Of a stretch of DNA of 64,000 nt, positions 16,790 to 26,655 are shown piece by piece. The stretch is from Sphingobacterium sp. CZ-UAM (GTDB lineage: Bacteria > Bacteroidota > Bacteroidia > Sphingobacteriales > Sphingobacteriaceae): assembly GCF_002000245.1 (NCBI RefSeq), contig NZ_MTCM01000002.1, positions 434,001-498,000 on the forward strand. The letters run 5' to 3'. The position numbers and the translations under genes are program-made. The notes beneath the pieces are model-generated. The model saw only the letters and a program-made list of their open reading frames with translations, was not told the origin of the DNA and searched no databases. Each line of letters starts with the position of its first letter. The stretch's first letter is position 1.

Positions 16790-16830
16790 AAATAAAAAGA
16801 CTAGTCGTGAGATTAGTCTTTTTTTATTTT
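16790..16830. terminator. Bidirectional terminator between convergent genes
   Basis: AAATAAAAAGACTAGTC (16790-16806), loop GTGA, then GATTAGTCTTTTTTTATTT. A-rich on one side and T-rich on the other, so it works for the TlpA-like gene (plus) and the AraC gene (minus), whose stop lies in it. Confidence 0.75.
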
Positions 16831-17178
16831 CTTTCTAAAGTTTCCCGGTGTATCTCCCGTCCATTTTTTAAAGAACTTGGCGAAATTGGAAGCATCATAG
16901 GTCAGCAGAAATGCAATTTTTGCGATGGACAGGGATGAATAGGCCATGAGTTCTTTTGCTCTGGCGATGATTTTCTGGTTGTAAAAATAACTGGGATGGT
17001 TTCCTTTTTCCTTTCGGACGGCATAAATAAGATGTTTGTGTGAGATGGCCAGTTCACTGGCGATCAGGTTGATCTCCATAAACGCCATCGTACGGCCTTG
17101 TACTACATCCTCAATGTGTCGGTCCAAAAACAATAAATATTGATTGGTGATCTGAGCGGCACGGTTTTCTGGTTTCAT
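16813..17178 (-). CDS. Short AraC-family DNA-binding protein (HTH only)
   Basis: A 121-aa protein consisting almost only of the AraC/XylS double helix-turn-helix: LIASELAISHKHLIYAVRKEKGNHPSYFYNQKIIARAKELM is the first HTH, and SIAKIAFLLTYDASNFAKFFKKWTGDTPGNFRKK the second, with the family's F-x-K/R-x-F-K-x-x-x-G-x-x-P signature. A full AraC protein of about 290 aa would carry a sensory N-terminal domain, which is missing here; I see no coding remnant upstream. It may be a constitutive binder or depend on a partner. It is convergent with the transporter operon and oriented like the lipoprotein gene that follows. Confidence 0.85.
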   Translation of the reverse strand: MKPENRAAQITNQYLLFLDRHIEDVVQGRTMAFMEINLIASELAISHKHLIYAVRKEKGNHPSYFYNQKIIARAKELMAYSSLSIAKIAFLLTYDASNFAKFFKKWTGDTPGNFRKKIKKD

Positions 17179-17425: not shown

Positions 17426-19189
17426 CTATTTATCCTGGATACAACGTACGGGATAACCAGCTCTTTTAAAATAATTCGAGGTATCCCAACCACCGTTTTC
17501 AAATCCACGGCCCTGATAAGCTCTGTCGTTACCACCTACTGCCGTATTTAACCAATAAATGGCCGAACTTTGTCGAATAAGCTGTGCTCCATTGGTCGAG
17601 CTTCTGTGCGCTGCAGCCGGAAAGCTTAATTTAATATCGCTGCTTTTTTTACTGGTCATAATATGTGCAGCCGTAAAATCTGATAATCCAGGTCCTGTTC
17701 CATTTCCGGAAAACGGAATCCAGTTTCCAATCGATGTATGGCGGGTAGCGTTGCCCAAACGGTTGAATTCAGCTTGGCTAGGTACCCGGTCTCCCGTACC
17801 ACATGGATCCAATGCTGCTTTTATAGGCGCTGTCGCAGTACCGTTATTCCAGGATCCATCTGCAGCAGGCGTTGTGTTCCAGCCAGCGATCGCGCCATCG
17901 CCGCTATAAGCATTTGCGACAGGCAATTGACGGCCCCATTGGTAGTAATTACCATATAGCGCCTGTACCGAAGGATTGGCATCCGGATTATTGCTCGCAG
18001 GGTTTACATTGGTTACACCAAGATTATAACGGTCCCAACGGTGACCAGAAATGACCGCATAGCGTGCATCTGCATCAGAACTGCTTCGGGTTACATTCGA
18101 TGCGTTGACATAACGGTCACTGTTAAAACGCAATTTCATCGTATAGGAATAGCCCGGTTTTAAACCTAAGCCCGCATTGGAGAAATTAAAGTTAACCGCT
18201 TGCGCATTGACGTCGTGGCCGATTTTGATCTGGCCGCTTGGTATAGTTAAGGCAATTGAAAAAGTAGACGACTGATTCTGGTTGACAATAAAGGTCTGGC
18301 CAGTCGCATTGAGGTTCGAAACCGGTGGAACATTCGTTACATTGCTGGAGGATACAGTCGCACCAGTGCTCAGGTCAACAGTGGCGTTAGCGAAAGCTGA
18401 AACCCATTCTGCCTGTACCGGAACCTCTGAAAGATAGCCGCCCTTTTTATAGTTCGCTGTACCAAAGGTTCCTGTCGCATCACTATTGTCGACTTGAAGC
18501 GTCACACGGGTAAACAGATGCTGCAAGGGAGCCGTCAATGGAGTTGGTGTATTGTTGCCCAGGATCGTGACATCTTTTTCGATGACGTACATCAGGTCTC
18601 CGCCATTCTCTGCAAAGCTGGTAAAAGCGAAATTAACTGTACCTGCCGTGTATAGGTTCGTTGTTGGCGCAGCAGGAGGGGCAGTAGTCGTAGACCCCAA
18701 GGAATAGATGACAAAGGTATATTTATTGCCTGCAATCAATTTATCCCCAAAAAATACTTGGGTCGAATCAGCAGCGTCACCGACAGCTTGGTCAATATAA
18801 GTACCATCTGTTTCATAAGCGACTACCCGATAAGTTACAGCACCTCTCAATGAGAGCAATTTTGAGGTTGCCTTTTTGCTGCTGGATGCTTTAAGCCCGG
18901 TACCACCTGCTGTATTTTCAGTCAGTTCTGCTGTAACGGTAAATGGTCCGGCCTGAACTTCCTGCGTTAACGTAAGGGGTTGAGCCGCGCTGGCCTTTGT
19001 AGAGGCTTTCGCTGTAGTAATGTCATCTCCACTAAATTGGGCTTCTGTTAAAGCCAGTTTTACACCACCTCGATTTGCTTCAGTAATAAGTTCAGCCTTC
19101 TCCTTACTACAGGAAGCGACGAAGGATACAAGAACAATCAGGGCTAGTTTTATCGTTGTGATCTGTGTTATTTTTTTCATCATTGTCAT
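17426..19189 (-). CDS. Surface lipoprotein: fimbrillin-like N-terminal domain plus FISUMP C-terminal domain
   Basis: A 587-aa exported lipoprotein with lipobox at Cys27 (VLVSFVASC). The N-terminal ~270 residues match the fimbrillin-like architecture of the divergent gene at 20016: TYRVVAYETDGTYIDQ, GNKYTFVIYSLGSTTTAP, GDLMYVIEKDVTI, LQHLFTRVTLQVDNS. The C-terminal ~180 residues are a Fibrobacter-succinogenes-major-paralogue (FISUMP) domain: GHRWDRYNLGVTN, YGNYYQWGRQLP, PCGTGDRVPSQAEFNRLGN, YWLNTAVGG, and the closing RAGYPVRCIQDK. Upstream ATGs (to 19312) overlap the peptide gene; starts at 19189, 19183 or 19180 leave a 19-nt gap after that gene. Role: probable cell-surface or fimbria-like structural protein. 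Confidence 0.87.
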   Translation of the reverse strand: MTMMKKITQITTIKLALIVLVSFVASCSKEKAELITEANRGGVKLALTEAQFSGDDITTAKASTKASAAQPLTLTQEVQAGPFTVTAELTENTAGGTGLKASSSKKATSKLLSLRGAVTYRVVAYETDGTYIDQAVGDAADSTQVFFGDKLIAGNKYTFVIYSLGSTTTAPPAAPTTNLYTAGTVNFAFTSFAENGGDLMYVIEKDVTILGNNTPTPLTAPLQHLFTRVTLQVDNSDATGTFGTANYKKGGYLSEVPVQAEWVSAFANATVDLSTGATVSSSNVTNVPPVSNLNATGQTFIVNQNQSSTFSIALTIPSGQIKIGHDVNAQAVNFNFSNAGLGLKPGYSYTMKLRFNSDRYVNASNVTRSSSDADARYAVISGHRWDRYNLGVTNVNPASNNPDANPSVQALYGNYYQWGRQLPVANAYSGDGAIAGWNTTPAADGSWNNGTATAPIKAALDPCGTGDRVPSQAEFNRLGNATRHTSIGNWIPFSGNGTGPGLSDFTAAHIMTSKKSSDIKLSFPAAAHRSSTNGAQLIRQSSAIYWLNTAVGGNDRAYQGRGFENGGWDTSNYFKRAGYPVRCIQDK

Positions 19190-19208: not shown

Positions 19209-19403
19209 CTAGTTCCACCATTCTCCGCCATCTGGATCTTTGGTTTCTGTTCCACCATTATTCCATTCATTTTCGTTGACGCCACTTCCGCCTCCGGGCT
19301 GGCCTGATCCAACCGATCCTGCAGCTATCCCTTCCTCCATAACCACCTGTAACTGCTCGATTACGGGTTGCACGTAAATCTTTTTTTCAGTTCTCTTTTT
19401 CAT
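19209..19403 (-). CDS. Small peptide, GIAAGS family, 64 aa
   Basis: A short hydrophilic protein without a signal peptide, first gene of a two-gene unit with the FISUMP lipoprotein 19 nt downstream. It is basic at the N-terminus (KKRTEKKIYVQPVIEQL), then VVMEEGIAAGS, then a Gly/Asn/Glu-rich tail ending GGEWWN. The block IYV-P-IE-V-E-GIAAGS is shared with the 57-aa peptide encoded at 21631, which also sits beside a lipoprotein gene. That sharing, the conserved position and the promoter box upstream argue that it is real. The leader-like first half and variable Trp-containing second half recall precursor peptides, but no processing enzyme is nearby. Function unknown. Confidence 0.75.
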   Translation of the reverse strand: MKKRTEKKIYVQPVIEQLQVVMEEGIAAGSVGSGQPGGGSGVNENEWNNGGTETKDPDGGEWWN

Positions 19404-19656
19404 GTTATCTTATTTATTATTTGGTTTATGCTTAGCACTTATTGTACAAGGCAGGTTAAATCATGGATAGAAGCAGCTGCCTACAGTTGATAAATGCTTT
19501 TTGTTAGTCGGATTTCAATTGCTAGTACTGTTAATGTCTATTTGATGTATTATTGTTGTTTATGTAATTTCTCTTCATTTAAATAATTAGCTGAACAAAG
19601 ACTTTCATTTCAGGATATATAGCTTGATCCATCGAAATAGATCCTAATTGTTGCTT

Positions 19657-19714
19657 CAAAGATAATTGAGAAAAAAAGAATAGCTATACCACATATCTAT
19701 CACACAAGTATCAC
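19657..19714 (-). promoter_or_regulatory. Promoter with 11-bp direct-repeat box for the 64-aa peptide/FISUMP unit
   Basis: On the minus strand the box GTGATACTTGTGTGATAGAT (19714 to 19695) is followed by exactly 30 nt and then TATCTTTG (19664 to 19657), a perfect TANNTTTG. GTGATA occurs twice, 11 bp apart. No good -33 TTTG is present, consistent with activator dependence. The box matches the plus-strand one at 17 of 20 positions. Confidence 0.6.
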
Positions 19715-19907
19715 TTATATTTCACTTTTATTTTTAATTTTCTGGTAAACAGTTTCTTGCGTTATTTTTTTTGAGTGTTTGTCAAAATTATTAGCCAAAT
19801 AAACTGCCGCCATCTAGGTTGTTTTTGTGTGTTGTAACATTGTTGTTCTATAATGATAATATATTTCACTTTAATACATTATAAGATTTTGAAAGGGATT
19901 TTAATAT

Positions 19908-19965
19908 GTGATATATGTGTGATATATACTTATTGTTTCTTTTCAGGAAAATATTTCAATATTTG
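19908..19965 (+). promoter_or_regulatory. Promoter with 11-bp direct-repeat box for the 520-aa lipoprotein/57-aa peptide unit
   Basis: Box GTGATATATGTGTGATATAT (19908-19927), then 30 nt, then AATATTTG (19958-19965), seven of eight to TANNTTTG, with a TTG near 19933 as possible -33. The lipoprotein ATG is 51 nt further on. The geometry is identical to the minus-strand promoter at 19657-19714. Confidence 0.6.
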
Positions 19966-20015: not shown

Positions 20016-21578
20016 ATGATTTTACAAACACAGACAAAGGTAAGCTGGAGAGCATTCGTTCTATCAGCTTTAGTGTGTGGATCGTTGTATTCCTGTAAGG
20101 AAAGCAAAGACAGTGTAGCTGCGAGCGGTAAGGCAAGTGTGAATATTCAGCTATTGGGGGTAGAAAATCCAATCGTGACCACAAAGAAAGCAGGTAAGGG
20201 CGGTAATGCTACTGGCGTAGCCCAGACTGTAGTGGTTCCTTTGACAAACTCAAGTTCTTTTGAAGCGACATTAACGAACGAGCCGTCCGTAACGAGTGGC
20301 AACCAGTTACGGGCCTCGTCCGGAAGCCGTGCTGCGGTGACCGAAGAAAGAACGCCATTGGCAGCGAACATCAAGTATAAAATCGTGGTGTACAATGCCG
20401 ACGGTGATTATGTAACCGAAAAAACTTATACCAATACGGTTGACAATAGTGTGGCAATCGCATTGGATGCGGGACAGACTTATACGTTTGTCGCTTATTC
20501 GGTCAATAGTACTTCAACAGTGCCTGCAGTAACAGCACAAGCTGATATCGCAAATGCCAGCCTAGATAATATCAGCGCGGATCTGATGTATTTTAAGAAG
20601 GATTTAGCGGTTCAGTCGGGGGACAACAATTTGGCTGTGGTATTAAAACATCAGTATAGTGAAGTGACCACTAATCTGAGCATGGCAACTGAGATGACAG
20701 GAGCGATTACCAATCTGGGTACGACCTCCATTGATCCGACGCATGCCAGTGCAAATCTAAAACTGGCGGATGGTACAATAACGTATAATGGCAATACCAC
20801 AAGTACTGCGGTGCAATTCCCAGCTTTGGGTGCAGGTTTACGTACGGTTTCAAGTAATCCGACGCTATTGATCCATCCGGGTGCAACAAATGGGGTATTT
20901 AGCTTTGGATCAATTACGATTGACGGCGAAACCAAGAACAATGTATCTGTAGCAGGCTTAAAGATCGTCCCTGGACAACGTTACAACCTCAACCTGAACT
21001 TCAAAACCTGTACACAACCTGTAACAGGTGGAGCAGATCTAAACTGGAGCTATCCTGCTTCAGGATCCGGCGCTGTTGTTGATGGAGTGACCCGGCCGGC
21101 AGGATATGTCGTAACCAAAGATCTTACTGCTCCGGGAGCTGACTATGGATTCGTGTTTGATATCCAACAACTGGACAACTCCTTTAACATGGAGGTAAAC
21201 GGCGTTAAATTGGCAACGCAGGAGATTCAGTTTGAAGCAGGCATTGCCATCGCGCCACGAAACGTTCAATTTGCGGACGGCAGTCTCTATGGTGGAACCA
21301 ATACAGAAGGTGGCACCGTTCCTCAGGTTTACAGTTTGACCGGTACTTCAGCAAACCCAGTAATTCGTGTAGTGATTAGCCGCTCAGGTGAAGTGTCTAT
21401 GTATGGTAGCAAAGCCAATGGTGGTGAATTGTATCCTTTAGTATTGACGCAAGGTTCTTTCAACACGGTGCCTTGGAGCTCTACAACCAATAATGTCAAA
21501 ATTACACAAGTGGTTCAAGGTGCAACCAAAATGGTGGGCGCCGGAAGCGGTAGAAAGAAAGTTGCCTGTACGCAATAG
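20016..21578 (+). CDS. Surface lipoprotein with fimbrillin-like domain, paralogue of the divergent gene
   Basis: A 520-aa lipoprotein, lipobox at Cys27 (VCGSLYSC). Its first ~240 residues align by eye with the divergent FISUMP protein: YKIVVYNADGDYVTEKTY, GQTYTFVAYSVNSTSTVP, ADLMYFKKDLAVQSG, LAVVLKHQYSEVTTNLS. The C-terminal half differs. There is no FISUMP motif, instead a beta-rich region (TCTQPVTGGADLNWSYPASG ... GFVFDIQQLDNSFNMEVNGVKL ... NPVIRVVISRSGEVSMYGSKA) that looks like a lectin- or adhesin-type fold, and a tail ending KKVACTQ with a late Cys. Together with the 57-aa peptide 52 nt downstream it forms a unit closed by a terminator. Role inferred: surface adhesin or fimbrial subunit. 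Confidence 0.85.
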   Translation: MILQTQTKVSWRAFVLSALVCGSLYSCKESKDSVAASGKASVNIQLLGVENPIVTTKKAGKGGNATGVAQTVVVPLTNSSSFEATLTNEPSVTSGNQLRASSGSRAAVTEERTPLAANIKYKIVVYNADGDYVTEKTYTNTVDNSVAIALDAGQTYTFVAYSVNSTSTVPAVTAQADIANASLDNISADLMYFKKDLAVQSGDNNLAVVLKHQYSEVTTNLSMATEMTGAITNLGTTSIDPTHASANLKLADGTITYNGNTTSTAVQFPALGAGLRTVSSNPTLLIHPGATNGVFSFGSITIDGETKNNVSVAGLKIVPGQRYNLNLNFKTCTQPVTGGADLNWSYPASGSGAVVDGVTRPAGYVVTKDLTAPGADYGFVFDIQQLDNSFNMEVNGVKLATQEIQFEAGIAIAPRNVQFADGSLYGGTNTEGGTVPQVYSLTGTSANPVIRVVISRSGEVSMYGSKANGGELYPLVLTQGSFNTVPWSSTTNNVKITQVVQGATKMVGAGSGRKKVACTQ

Positions 21579-21630: not shown

Positions 21631-21804
21631 ATGAAAACAAATCAGTCAAAAAATATATATGTCAGCCCAAAGATAGAGGCGATGAATGTCGAATTGGAGC
21701 AAGGTATTGCAGCAGGTTCTGCTGCTCCTGGAAATACGATTAGTAATGACCCACAGGAATCCTGGGATAATGCCGATGATGACAACCGTTTAATCAATTG
21801 GTAA
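21631..21804 (+). CDS. Small peptide, GIAAGS family, 57 aa
   Basis: A 57-aa ORF, ATG at 21631 to TAA at 21802-21804, 52 nt after the lipoprotein stop and 38 nt before a strong terminator, so it is the last gene of that transcript. The sequence begins KTNQSKNIYVSPKIEAMNV, then ELEQGIAAGS, then an acidic tail (NDPQESWDNADDD) ending in NRLINW. It shares IYV-P-IE-V-E-GIAAGS with the 64-aa peptide at 19209. There is no signal peptide and no Cys. The paralogy across two loci with otherwise different tails shows that the first half is under selection. Function unknown; a leader/core precursor or a secreted structural accessory are guesses. Confidence 0.78.
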   Translation: MKTNQSKNIYVSPKIEAMNVELEQGIAAGSAAPGNTISNDPQESWDNADDDNRLINW

Positions 21805-22159: not shown

Positions 22160-22216
22160 GTGATATCAATGTGAAAGGTGCTTTTTTTTGTTTCTTTCTT
22201 TTAATGTAAATATTTG
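22160..22216 (+). promoter_or_regulatory. Third, weaker copy of the direct-repeat box with -7 element
   Basis: GTGATATCAATGTGAAAGGT (22160-22179) matches the plus-strand box at 14 of 20 positions and keeps GTGA at 11-bp spacing. It is followed by 29 nt and AATATTTG (22209-22216), the same -7 as at 19958. It lies 300 nt upstream of the stand-alone HTH gene. The 640 bp between the terminator at 21877 and that gene otherwise hold no ORF I can support. Confidence 0.4.
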
Positions 22217-22352
22217 TCAAACAGAATTAGGTCGGACATTCCAGCAGCGAAGCTACCAGATAAAAGTACAGCACAAATCTGCAGTCTTACCACCTTTAAC
22301 TTTTGGCCGTATTGAATTATCGCTCGGATTAATGCGTGAAAGTCCGTGATAA

Positions 22353-22396
22353 TATATTTGGATTTACTCGATAGGGCAGATGGAGCCCTGTCGAGT
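22353..22396 (+). promoter_or_regulatory. Promoter -7 element and leader hairpin before the HTH gene
   Basis: TATATTTG (22353-22360) is a perfect TANNTTTG. Just behind it ACTCGATAGGGC (22366-22377) pairs with GCCCTGTCGAGT (22385-22396), a 12-bp stem with one G-T pair, at the expected transcript start. The hairpin could stabilise the transcript or act as a terminator for anything arriving from 22216. Confidence 0.45.
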
Positions 22397-22516
22397 TTAA
22401 ATTATTAAGACGGCCTATTTCCTCTGGAAAACGAAAATAATTGTCGGCTTTTGGGTGAAAATATTTCGCTCAAGGAACGGAATATAAGAATAAAACTTAT
22501 TGAAATACGATGTACA

Positions 22517-22867
22517 ATGGAAAGGAATGACTTTAATCATTTAATAGCTTTAGCGAAGAATAATAATGCTGAATTTTTGGCTTTGTTCAATGAAATTTAT
22601 CCCGAGTTTGTCACCTCATTGAAGACAATAAATCCTAAAATCCGGAGCAGCGAACTGGAATTTTGTGCGATGACCTTTCTGAATTTTTCGACCAAAAATA
22701 TTGCTCAATACACCTTTGTAACGGTGCGTGCTGTACAAGTACGTAAAAATAGATTGCGCAAAAAACTGAATATCGCTTCCGACATCGATTTTAACAATTG
22801 GATGCGCGAACAGATACAACGAAAACCACCAGTTGAACAGGAGCAAAGCCCAAATAAAATTACCTAA
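22517..22867 (+). CDS. Stand-alone DNA-binding domain related to the TPR-HTH regulator downstream
   Basis: A 116-aa protein almost identical in kind to the last ~100 residues of the regulator at 23584: LEFCAM-FLNFSTKNIA-YTFVTVRAVQVRKNRLRKK is shared with few changes. This is a helix-turn-helix of the LuxR/GerE-like kind, with recognition helix around TVRAVQVRKNRLRKK. It lacks the TPR sensor and the membrane helix. The ATG at 22517 starts MERNDFNHL, matching the domain boundary in the larger protein; an earlier ATG at 22451 adds 22 unrelated residues. It is either a trimmed duplicate or a free effector domain. Possible regulator of the lipoprotein genes just upstream, by position only. Confidence 0.75.
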   Translation: MERNDFNHLIALAKNNNAEFLALFNEIYPEFVTSLKTINPKIRSSELEFCAMTFLNFSTKNIAQYTFVTVRAVQVRKNRLRKKLNIASDIDFNNWMREQIQRKPPVEQEQSPNKIT

Positions 22868-23019: not shown

Positions 23020-23391
23020 ATGAATAAAAAGATTTTTTTATGTGATGACAATCTGGTCATTTTGGAGGCTTTAGAAATGATACTGAGTATGACCGATGCG
23101 AAGGTTGTCAGTGAAAGCAAAAGTTCTAAAGCCCTATTCTACATTATAAATGAAAAGCCTGATATTTTTATCTGTGATTTGCAGATGCCCGAACTAAATG
23201 GTGAAGGCCTTATCAAACAGGTTCGTTCGCATAAAGAATTAGATAACCTCTTTATCCTATGCATTTCTGCTTTCTATGGGGGTAAAGATATCGCAATCCG
23301 TGCGGGTGCCGACTATTTCCTCCCTAAACCTTTCGAGATAAATGAACTATTAGCTGTTGTGAATCGTGTTTTGGATGCTGGAACATATTGA
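23020..23391 (+). CDS. Single-domain response regulator (CheY-like)
   Basis: A 123-aa receiver domain with no output domain. Asp9/Asp10 form the acidic pocket (LCDDN), Asp53 is the phosphoacceptor (FICDLQMPELNG), Ser83 the switch residue (CISAFYG) and Lys103 the conserved lysine (LPKPFE). It must act by protein contact. It lies between the stand-alone HTH gene and the TPR-HTH regulator; no histidine kinase gene is near. Pairing with either neighbour is plausible but unproven. Confidence 0.9.
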   Translation: MNKKIFLCDDNLVILEALEMILSMTDAKVVSESKSSKALFYIINEKPDIFICDLQMPELNGEGLIKQVRSHKELDNLFILCISAFYGGKDIAIRAGADYFLPKPFEINELLAVVNRVLDAGTY

Positions 23392-23583: not shown

Positions 23584-25059
23584 ATGAAAAAACAACTTCT
23601 TTTTTTAATTTTAATATTATTTACGCTTAAAGCAGTTGCTGGCGATGGACGGAAGCAGGAGGTGGATTCACTTTTAGCGAAGTCGATGGAATTCGGTGGT
23701 AAAGGAGATCTGGTCACCTATATCGAGATGGCGATAAAAGCGCTTAATTTGGCTAGTGCGGTCAACTATGATGTAGGAAAGGCGAAATCCGGCTCTTATA
23801 TAGCTGAAGGTCTTATTACTGTAGGGTTATTTAAGGAAGGATTGAAGCAGCTGGATCGTATTGAAACCACAGACTTTTATAAGAATGAAATTTTCATGCA
23901 ATCCGAAGTGCATCGGTTGCGGGGAAGAGCTTATGGAGGGCTTATGCTTTATCAACAGGCCCTTCGGGAGTTACGTATGCAGCAGGGACTGATCAGAAAG
24001 CTGACCGGTGAAAAACAAATAAAATCCTACCAGTTTAACTATGAGAATTTAGCCGTTGTGTTTCAGCGTCTGGGGCAACTGGATTCGATGCAAAAATATA
24101 CTGAACTACAATTGGACAATCTGAAAGTGTTTGCAGAAAAAGATGCAGCTATGCGCTATCAGATTGTTTATGAAAATTTAGGCAAGTTATATGTCCAGAA
24201 AGGCGAGTTAGCAAAAGCGCAGCTATACCTTGACAAATCTTTAGCGCTGATTGAAAAATATAAGATTCCTATTGTGCTGAATACCTATGGAGTATTAGGA
24301 TCATTGGAGGAGAAGCGGGGTAATCTTAAAAAGGCGGCGGCCTTTTATGAAGAAAGTCTCAAAAAAAAGCGGGTGGCGGGTAGCAGAATTGGAATAAAGA
24401 GTTCATACCGCGAGTTGGCTGATTTTTACCGGAAGAACAACCTGGATAAAGCCAGGGCTGATCACTATGAAATGGCCTTTAGTCGACTCAATGATTCCTT
24501 GGAGAATGAAAATCGCCAGGTTGTGGATCAGGTGCTCAATCAGATTTTGCAACTAAAAGACCAGGAATCCGAGACTAAGGTTTCAAAAGTAGCTACAATC
24601 GCAATTCTGGTGTTGGTATTGTTGGTGGGTGCGATCTCATTTTTTATATGGCGGACCAGACATAATCGTAAGGCTTTGTTGCAGAAAGAAGAGGCTTTGC
24701 AGGAGACAGAATCCGTGAATAGGGAACTGACTGAGCAAATTGGTGAAAATAAATTCAATACGCTAGTGGAGCTGGCCAAAAGCAATAATCCGGAATTCCT
24801 GACATTATTTACCGAACTGTATCCACAGTTTATCCAAGCCTTAAAATCACGTGATTCAAATCTCAGAAGCACCGAACTGGAGTTTTGCGCGATGGCCTTT
24901 CTCAACTTTTCAACAAAAAATATTGCTGAATATACCTTTGTGACCGTCAGGGCGGTACAGGTCCGCAAAAACAGGTTGCGTAAGAAGTTTGATATCCCTT
25001 CGGATGCGGACTTCAATAATTGGATGCGTGGACTGGTCGATACGTCAGAACAAGCCTAG
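23584..25059 (+). CDS. TPR sensor / transmembrane / HTH transcriptional regulator
   Basis: A 491-aa one-component regulator. Signal-anchor or signal peptide (KKQLLFLILILFTLKAVA), then TPR-like helical repeats to about 310 (YENLGKLYVQKGELAKAQLYLDKSLALIEKY; LGSLEEKRGNLKKAAAFYEESLKKKR), which would lie outside the inner membrane. One membrane helix follows at about 334-356 (VATIAILVLVLLVGAISFFIW), a short coiled coil, and a cytoplasmic HTH domain (about 385-485) with LEFCAMAFLNFSTKNIAEY and VRAVQVRKNRLRKKF. This class occurs in Bacteroidota next to surface-protein genes. It is a reasonable candidate for controlling the lipoprotein island, as an inference from position. Confidence 0.87.
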   Translation: MKKQLLFLILILFTLKAVAGDGRKQEVDSLLAKSMEFGGKGDLVTYIEMAIKALNLASAVNYDVGKAKSGSYIAEGLITVGLFKEGLKQLDRIETTDFYKNEIFMQSEVHRLRGRAYGGLMLYQQALRELRMQQGLIRKLTGEKQIKSYQFNYENLAVVFQRLGQLDSMQKYTELQLDNLKVFAEKDAAMRYQIVYENLGKLYVQKGELAKAQLYLDKSLALIEKYKIPIVLNTYGVLGSLEEKRGNLKKAAAFYEESLKKKRVAGSRIGIKSSYRELADFYRKNNLDKARADHYEMAFSRLNDSLENENRQVVDQVLNQILQLKDQESETKVSKVATIAILVLVLLVGAISFFIWRTRHNRKALLQKEEALQETESVNRELTEQIGENKFNTLVELAKSNNPEFLTLFTELYPQFIQALKSRDSNLRSTELEFCAMAFLNFSTKNIAEYTFVTVRAVQVRKNRLRKKFDIPSDADFNNWMRGLVDTSEQA

Positions 25060-25797: not shown

Positions 25798-26655
25798 ATG
25801 AAAGCAGATTTTCCCGTTTACACGCCTAAACAAATCGTCGATACCCCCACAAAACCCGTACTTTTTGATGAAGGCTACGATTTGTTTGGCGAAGATGGAG
25901 TCGGGGTCCATAAAGTGGACTTTTTTATTATTATGCTTGTTATCGCTGGAGGGGGTATTCATACGATCGAATCCATTAAATATCCGATCATGGCCGGAAA
26001 TCTGCATCTGGTATTTCCGCGTCAGCAACATGAAGTCGTTTTGGAGCAAGATGCTCGGGTTTATACCTTATATGTAAATAATACATTATTCAATTCGTTT
26101 ACCGATCATTTTAAATTTACTTTTTTACTATATCAGAATTATCCGGTCATCAAATTGAGCGTACGGGGTTACGGAAATATGCTGCACGAGATTCATGGAA
26201 TTAAAAACGAACTGATTTTAGTTGAACTTAATCCCGAAATTCTTAAACTCCACCTGATGATCATTGGTGAAATCATTAATCGGGAGGTATTTAGATATTT
26301 TCGGGTGGAAGAAAAAGTAAGGAATCACCGTCTGTCGGAATATGTGAAGCTGGTCGATAACTATTTCGCTGAACATAAGCAGGTTGCCTTCTACGCGAAA
26401 ATTCTGAATGTAACGGTCAATTATCTGAATGTATGCTGTAAAAAATATCTTTCCTGTACTGCAACTCAGGTGATCCAGGACCGTGTTATCCAGGAAGCAA
26501 AGCGTAAATTTAGTATTGGAAATATGTCGATCAAAGAGGTTGGATCCTCTTTAGGTTTTGACGATGTATCTTATTTTACACGATTTTTTAGGGAAAAAAC
26601 GGGATTAACACCGAGGAAATTTATTGACCTTTGCTTCTCGCCTCCCTTGAACTGA
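25798..26655 (+). CDS. AraC-family transcriptional regulator
   Basis: 285 aa. The N-terminal ~150 residues form a cupin-like sensing region (FFIIMLVIAGGGIHTIE, YPIMAGNLHLVFPRQQHEV, ARVYTLYVNNTLF). The C-terminal ~100 residues are the AraC double HTH (AKILNVTVNYLNVCCKKYL; SIKEVGSSLGFDDVSYFTRFFREKTGLTPRKFI). It resembles the regulator that follows at 26924 in length and in the VNYLN/PNYLN motif, so the two are probably an old tandem duplicate. Start ATG at 25798. No target is obvious; the neighbours are a decayed FISUMP gene and the GLPGLI/TonB operon. Confidence 0.9.
   Translation: MKADFPVYTPKQIVDTPTKPVLFDEGYDLFGEDGVGVHKVDFFIIMLVIAGGGIHTIESIKYPIMAGNLHLVFPRQQHEVVLEQDARVYTLYVNNTLFNSFTDHFKFTFLLYQNYPVIKLSVRGYGNMLHEIHGIKNELILVELNPEILKLHLMIIGEIINREVFRYFRVEEKVRNHRLSEYVKLVDNYFAEHKQVAFYAKILNVTVNYLNVCCKKYLSCTATQVIQDRVIQEAKRKFSIGNMSIKEVGSSLGFDDVSYFTRFFREKTGLTPRKFIDLCFSPPLN

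Follow-up and report, generated by a model that had tools for sequence, protein, structure and literature searches.

The region of interest lies between two divergent groups of genes in a 64-kb window of a Sphingobacterium genome, the window being the whole stretch of DNA that was analysed. On the minus strand, the first gene of an operon encodes a 64-aa peptide that is conserved in relatives (GIAAGS peptide, 19209-19403). It is accompanied by the gene for a FISUMP-domain lipoprotein (17426-19183, minus strand), which has an unsettled start codon and a weak match, below the cut-off, to NCBIfam TIGR02145, and the operon ends with a gene for a 121-aa AraC-type protein (16813-17178). On the plus strand, a gene for a 520-aa fimbrillin-like lipoprotein (20016-21578) has a second GIAAGS peptide gene 3' of it (21631-21804). 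The fimbrillin-like protein found no match in Pfam or NCBIfam, so its name rests on an earlier description and a general resemblance. The original prediction had treated the two lipoproteins as paralogues, but they are alike only over the first ~230 residues (~25-34% identity). The two short peptides share the motif (V/M)E(E/Q)GIAAGS, one preceding the FISUMP gene and the other following the fimbrillin-like gene. Relatives of these peptides adjoin lipoprotein genes across the genus, with an SIASGS form in genome G034 and others.

Several potential regulatory genes are found further along the window. These include, on the plus strand, lux138 (22517-22867), which encodes a 116-aa stand-alone LuxR/NarL-type helix-turn-helix (HTH) protein, and a gene for a 491-aa protein combining TPRs and an HTH (TPR-HTH protein, 23584-25059), both of which are candidate regulators. 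A stand-alone receiver protein is encoded between them (23020-23391), and genes at 25798 and 26924 encode two further AraC-type proteins (285 aa and 293 aa).

Tandem boxes at three promoters

The box upstream of the fimbrillin-like gene, GTGATATATGTGTGATATAT (19908-19927, plus strand), has the form GTGATA-N5-GTGATA, with units at 19908-19913 and 19919-19924, and was recognized from the sequence and from its conservation in orthologues. The -7 element of this gene, AATATTTG (19958-19965, plus strand), is at the same place in orthologues, where the distance of 39 nt from the unit start to the -7 octamer is also kept, and it deviates from TAnnTTTG at the first base. On the other strand, the box GTGATACTTGTGTGATAGAT (19714-19695) faces the GIAAGS/FISUMP operon, with the -7 element TATCTTTG at 19664-19657. 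The sequence bore out the prediction that the two boxes are identical at 17 of 20 positions and that a gap of 30 nt separates each from its -7 element. The predicted repetition of GTGATA at 11 bp was also present in both boxes, but the minus-strand box proved to be part of an array of four units rather than two (19687-19725), with GTGAAA, GTGATA, GTGATA and GTGGTA following each other in 11-bp steps.

While both of the promoters originally predicted to share this geometry do so, a third in the window had been overlooked (22160-22216, before lux138). Here, a box with the form GTGATA-N5-GTGAAA (22160-22176, plus strand) lies 38 nt from another copy of the -7 element AATATTTG (22209-22216, plus strand). 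The same arrangement, 38 nt from AATATTTG or AATCTTTG, precedes lux138 in all of the orthologues with enough upstream DNA. An orphan promoter of the lux138 type was found in genome G110 (L245:7837, minus strand) with no lux138 gene downstream, and is possibly the remnant of a lost gene.

When the window was searched with GTGATANNTGTGTGATANAT, allowing up to three mismatches, three matches were found against 0.14 expected, the third being a shifted register of the minus-strand array. With no mismatch allowed, the plus- and minus-strand boxes were the sole two matches in the genome of 5,842,415 bases.

Long leaders follow two of the promoters. Conserved blocks are present in the leader of the GIAAGS peptide gene (19404-19650, minus strand, ~250 nt), one of them, ATAAACCAAATAAT, close to the start codon. 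The lux138 leader (22217-22516, ~300 nt) contains two conserved hairpins around CGTGATAATATATTTGGATT, the second of which is terminator-like. These hairpins are kept in 13 genomes, with changes on both sides in 5 of the 23 predicted pairs. No match to the leader was found in Rfam and its core is present as a single copy in the genome. It is a candidate attenuator or other structured leader.

Conservation, spacing and distribution of the boxes

Homologues of the locus were found in Sphingobacterium records, and the intergenic DNA that separates the divergent GIAAGS peptide and fimbrillin-like genes was compared across nine genomes. In seven of these, the double units were kept at both promoters while the remaining intergenic DNA had diverged, and the minus-strand array included two or three near-perfect units. 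At one locus (L092) the fimbrillin gene is broken and its box is found at a different offset, and at another (L098) the fimbrillin gene is absent and the region continues to lux138. Neither a GTGATA box nor other identical units at 36-41 nt were detected at the other fimbrillin-like paralogues of the genome (L093 and L094). A search for a box belonging to the TPR-HTH gene of the window found none, and in some relatives the TPR-HTH gene either has no box or has one with a 42-nt spacing.

A search of 94 genomes of the genus with the exact sequence TGTGATANNNNTGTGATA yielded 41 matches, compared to 2 in the reversed control. When a composite pattern, GTGATA-N5-GTGATA with ANNTTTG at 31-34 nt, was used with 400 genomes of the family, 39 matches were found against one in the reversed control, although such genome counts overstate independence because the genomes are related. 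Within 16 Sphingobacterium genomes were 37 of the 39, and the other two were single matches in another genus. This enrichment and the excess of matches in the window uphold the earlier view that the arrangement is unlikely to be due to chance.

The spacing was strongly constrained. When the distance was left unrestricted, the start of the last unit was 38 nt (14 sites) or 39 nt (22 sites) from ANNTTTG in 36 of 46 distinct double sites, a set that includes loci fetched via earlier patterns and draws on related genomes, but in which the exact TGTGATANNNNTGTGATA sites were chosen without regard to spacing. Each other distance was represented by at most one of the 46. A T precedes each of the two units (93 and 97% conserved) and was not demanded by the composite pattern. 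A -7 element matching TAnnTTTG exactly or with one difference was present at nearly all sites, and no TTTG at -33 was evident in the composite consensus.

Nearly all of the exact sites precede fimbrillin-like, GIAAGS/FISUMP or TPR-HTH genes, with distances to the start codon of ~90, ~250-320 and 220-480 nt, respectively. The genome scan proposed as a check on the original prediction thus gave matches concentrated at the fimbrillin, GIAAGS/FISUMP and regulator genes. In genome G046 (L193, C10:539017), a correctly spaced box lies before a 207-aa gene resembling an XRE-type HTH, which is outside the usual target classes. Several matches to relaxed patterns outside the 16 genomes resemble chance or are orphans (G110, G010). 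In G104 and G017, and in one case in G117, the relaxed match lies in shared sequence ahead of an unrelated oxidoreductase gene and is probably due to chance.

Candidate regulators and variant boxes

The AlphaFold2 model of lux138 (mean pLDDT 84.6) has a four-helix HTH fold. Almost all of the top Foldseek matches to it were LuxR/NarL DNA-binding domains (probability ~1, E-values of 0.06 and above), with a TM score by target length of up to 0.84 (ComA). At E <= 0.001, neither lux138 nor the HTH region of the TPR protein matched the LuxR/GerE profile or any other Pfam family. Besides its TPRs, the TPR-HTH protein has a signal peptide and, at about residues 325-347, a membrane helix; its C-terminal HTH was recognized by alignment with lux138. 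Its Pfam matches were to TPR_12 and, weakly, to DUF6377, with TPR_MalT below the cut-off. The recognition helix TVRAVQVRKNRLRKK is common to the two proteins, and the HTH that they share is the likeliest regulator. The stand-alone receiver protein was rejected as the regulator; it has no DNA-binding domain and is absent from several of the orthologous loci.

The shared HTH was detected at E <= 1e-40 in 20 of the 94 genomes of the genus, and all 20 include a full-length TPR version, though these are not 20 independent events because the pattern of presence and absence follows a few clades. The same 20 are the genomes with boxes, 16 with GTGATA-N5-GTGATA and four with a variant box (G008, G034, G041 and G093). 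Outside them, relaxed patterns gave 10 matches, near the control count of 7. Four genomes without a stand-alone lux138 keep the boxes, which suggests that the TPR protein is sufficient there.

MalT of Escherichia coli joins a TPR-like sensor to a LuxR-type HTH, binds cooperatively to its boxes and recruits RNA polymerase (PMC4381067). The protein encoded at 23584-25059 resembles it in having a TPR-like sensor and a C-terminal LuxR-type HTH. However, MalT has an ATPase domain, whereas no Pfam NTPase family and no MalT/STAND NOD domain was matched by the TPR-HTH protein, and MalT is soluble while the TPR-HTH proteins have a signal peptide and a membrane helix. MalT boxes, which occur as direct repeats, also differ in sequence from the GTGATA box. 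A weak match links the TPR-HTH protein to the DUF6377 TPR proteins of Bacteroidota, and the end of the BT3442 model matches the C-terminal HTH of both lux138 (E 1.3e-07) and the TPR protein (E 2.4e-05), but only the C-terminal 63-65 residues align and the scores of 30.8 and 23.3 bits are far below the cut-off of 940. In the literature searched, no binding site was reported for the BT3442/DUF6377 family, and all that is said of BT_3442 is that it is a TPR protein beside a MACPF cluster (PMC2954219). The predicted fold of lux138 is like that of the DNA-binding domains of NarL/FixJ response regulators (VraR, LiaR, ComA and NarL), but lux138 has no receiver domain. NarL-type sites are mostly inverted repeats, whereas the boxes here are direct repeats at 11 bp.

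The variant GTGATANNNATGTGAANACC was matched without mismatch only in G008, G034, G041 and G093, though as the pattern was written after G034 and G008 had been seen, independent confirmation comes from G041 and G093 alone. It lies upstream of an SIASGS-type peptide and lipoprotein pair with a -7 element like TATTATTG, and in three genomes inspected by hand its last unit is 38 nt from the -7 element. In G044, a more distant TPR-HTH protein has the altered recognition helix TPSAVQNRKNRIRKR and three promoters have [AG]TGGTA-N5-GTGGTA, 38 nt from TACTTTTG or TACTTTTA. Divergent regulator and altered box thus go together in this genome.

A TPR-HTH gene was also found in another class, in Chryseobacterium sp. 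LAM-KRS1, with an HTH of 60% identity. Just upstream of the gene are two perfect double GTGATA boxes in divergent orientation, the plus-strand box 38 nt from TAACATTG; the minus-strand box has no -7 element at 38-39 nt. Two double boxes were never obtained in 2,000 block shuffles of this locus (mean 0.0025). A second Chryseobacterium homologue (L266) had no box within its 8.3 kb. More distant, paralogous TPR-HTH/GIAAGS loci (L170, L171, L172 and L176) contain a highly conserved block, TTGGGGGGAG, of the form GAGTAG-N5-GGGGGG, with GGGGGG starting 38 nt before CATGTTTG. This is suggestive only, and the block is possibly the box of another regulator.

A proposed regulon for surface lipoproteins

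The conserved boxes, their 38-39 nt spacing and their association with particular genes support the original prediction that one regulator serves both divergent units. We think it probable that the boxes are the operators of one small regulon, bound by the LuxR/NarL-type HTH of the TPR protein and lux138, and that they serve in activation. From the sequence we also infer that the regulator would bind as a head-to-tail dimer and activate, as had been proposed. The HTH would recognize head-to-tail 7-bp units (TGTGATA) at 11-bp spacing. If the -7 octamer is placed at -12 to -5, as in Bacteroidota promoters (PMC9723704), the proximal unit would occupy about -51 to -46 and its neighbour -62 to -57, on one face of the helix. 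The bound protein would then make contact with RNA polymerase and activate promoters without a conserved -33 element. Such an upstream position is usual for activators in contact with sigma or alpha, and this position of the boxes, together with the lack of a conserved -33 element, makes activation the best reading. All of the box sites end in the TAnnTTTG -7 element of Bacteroidota sigma-A promoters (PMC9723704) or a close variant of it, but differ from those promoters in having an activator box at a fixed upstream place and no conserved -33 element. In this genome the regulon would comprise the GIAAGS/FISUMP operon, the fimbrillin-like gene together with its GIAAGS peptide gene, and lux138, whose own box would close a feedback loop. 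Expressed in this way, lux138 could strengthen or dampen the response. The TPR domain is probably periplasmic and may act as a sensor of the envelope or of exported lipoproteins.

Sequence does not prove activation, and the same HTH could use the same boxes to repress, or soluble lux138, a truncated paralogue with an identical recognition helix and its own box, could compete for the box with the membrane-bound activator. We regard this as unlikely, as the units keep a constant helical phase and are situated upstream of the -33 region, not over the -7 element or the start, and the promoters have no conserved -33 element, as in activated promoters. The boxes might instead have no regulatory function, and owe their similarity to inherited duplicated sequence or to chance, given that the flanking genes are distantly related in their N-terminal part and other AT-rich repeats occur in the window. 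This is refuted by the persistence of the units and their spacing while the surroundings diverge, by the enrichment over the control, and by the lux138 and TPR-HTH promoters, which carry the box without those flanking genes; we give it a negligible probability.

A different protein could also bind the boxes. The neighbouring AraC-type proteins (the 121-aa protein or those encoded at 25798 and 26924) have confirmed AraC HTH domains, and AraC-family proteins often bind direct repeats. However, the boxes and the locus occur in G082, G083, G009 and G117 without any protein that matches the 121-aa one at E <= 1e-20. Most of the genomes with boxes contain no close relative of the 285-aa protein (best non-self 47%), and the 293-aa protein, compared within the fetched loci, gave weak matches to the HTH only. 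As genomes with boxes lack these genes, the cognate gene does not accompany the box everywhere, and the AraC-type neighbours are largely refuted and very unlikely to be the regulator. Binding by a Crp/Fnr-type regulator is more improbable still. TGTGA, the Crp half-site, does open each unit, but Crp sites are inverted repeats (TGTGA-N6-TCACA), whereas the units here are direct repeats at 11 bp with no TCACA partner. The composite pattern also occurs only where the TPR-HTH family is present, while a broader distribution would be expected for Crp-like proteins.

Binding by the HTH of lux138 and the TPR-HTH protein thus remains the preferred reading. The promoters of Bacteroidota depart from the E. 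coli model and, to our knowledge, few operator sequences and activator geometries have been described in this phylum. Our literature search found no paper on DUF6377, on the regulation of Sphingobacterium fimbrillins, or on both combined. The outcome here is a precise, conserved putative operator with a spacing rule, a set of targets and a candidate regulator, and it suggests that a feedback loop controls surface lipoproteins. The box is a first candidate binding site for a type of regulator that is widespread but unstudied. More tentatively, and with somewhat less than even likelihood, there may be a Bacteroidota-wide family of membrane-anchored one-component TPR-HTH regulators, in which every member would recognize a tandem box of its own, with 11-bp repeats placed at a fixed 38-39 nt from the -7 element, and would have surface adhesins as targets and soluble HTH paralogues as partners. 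If so, a code relating recognition helix to box would be readable from genomes (GTGATA here and GTGGTA in G044).
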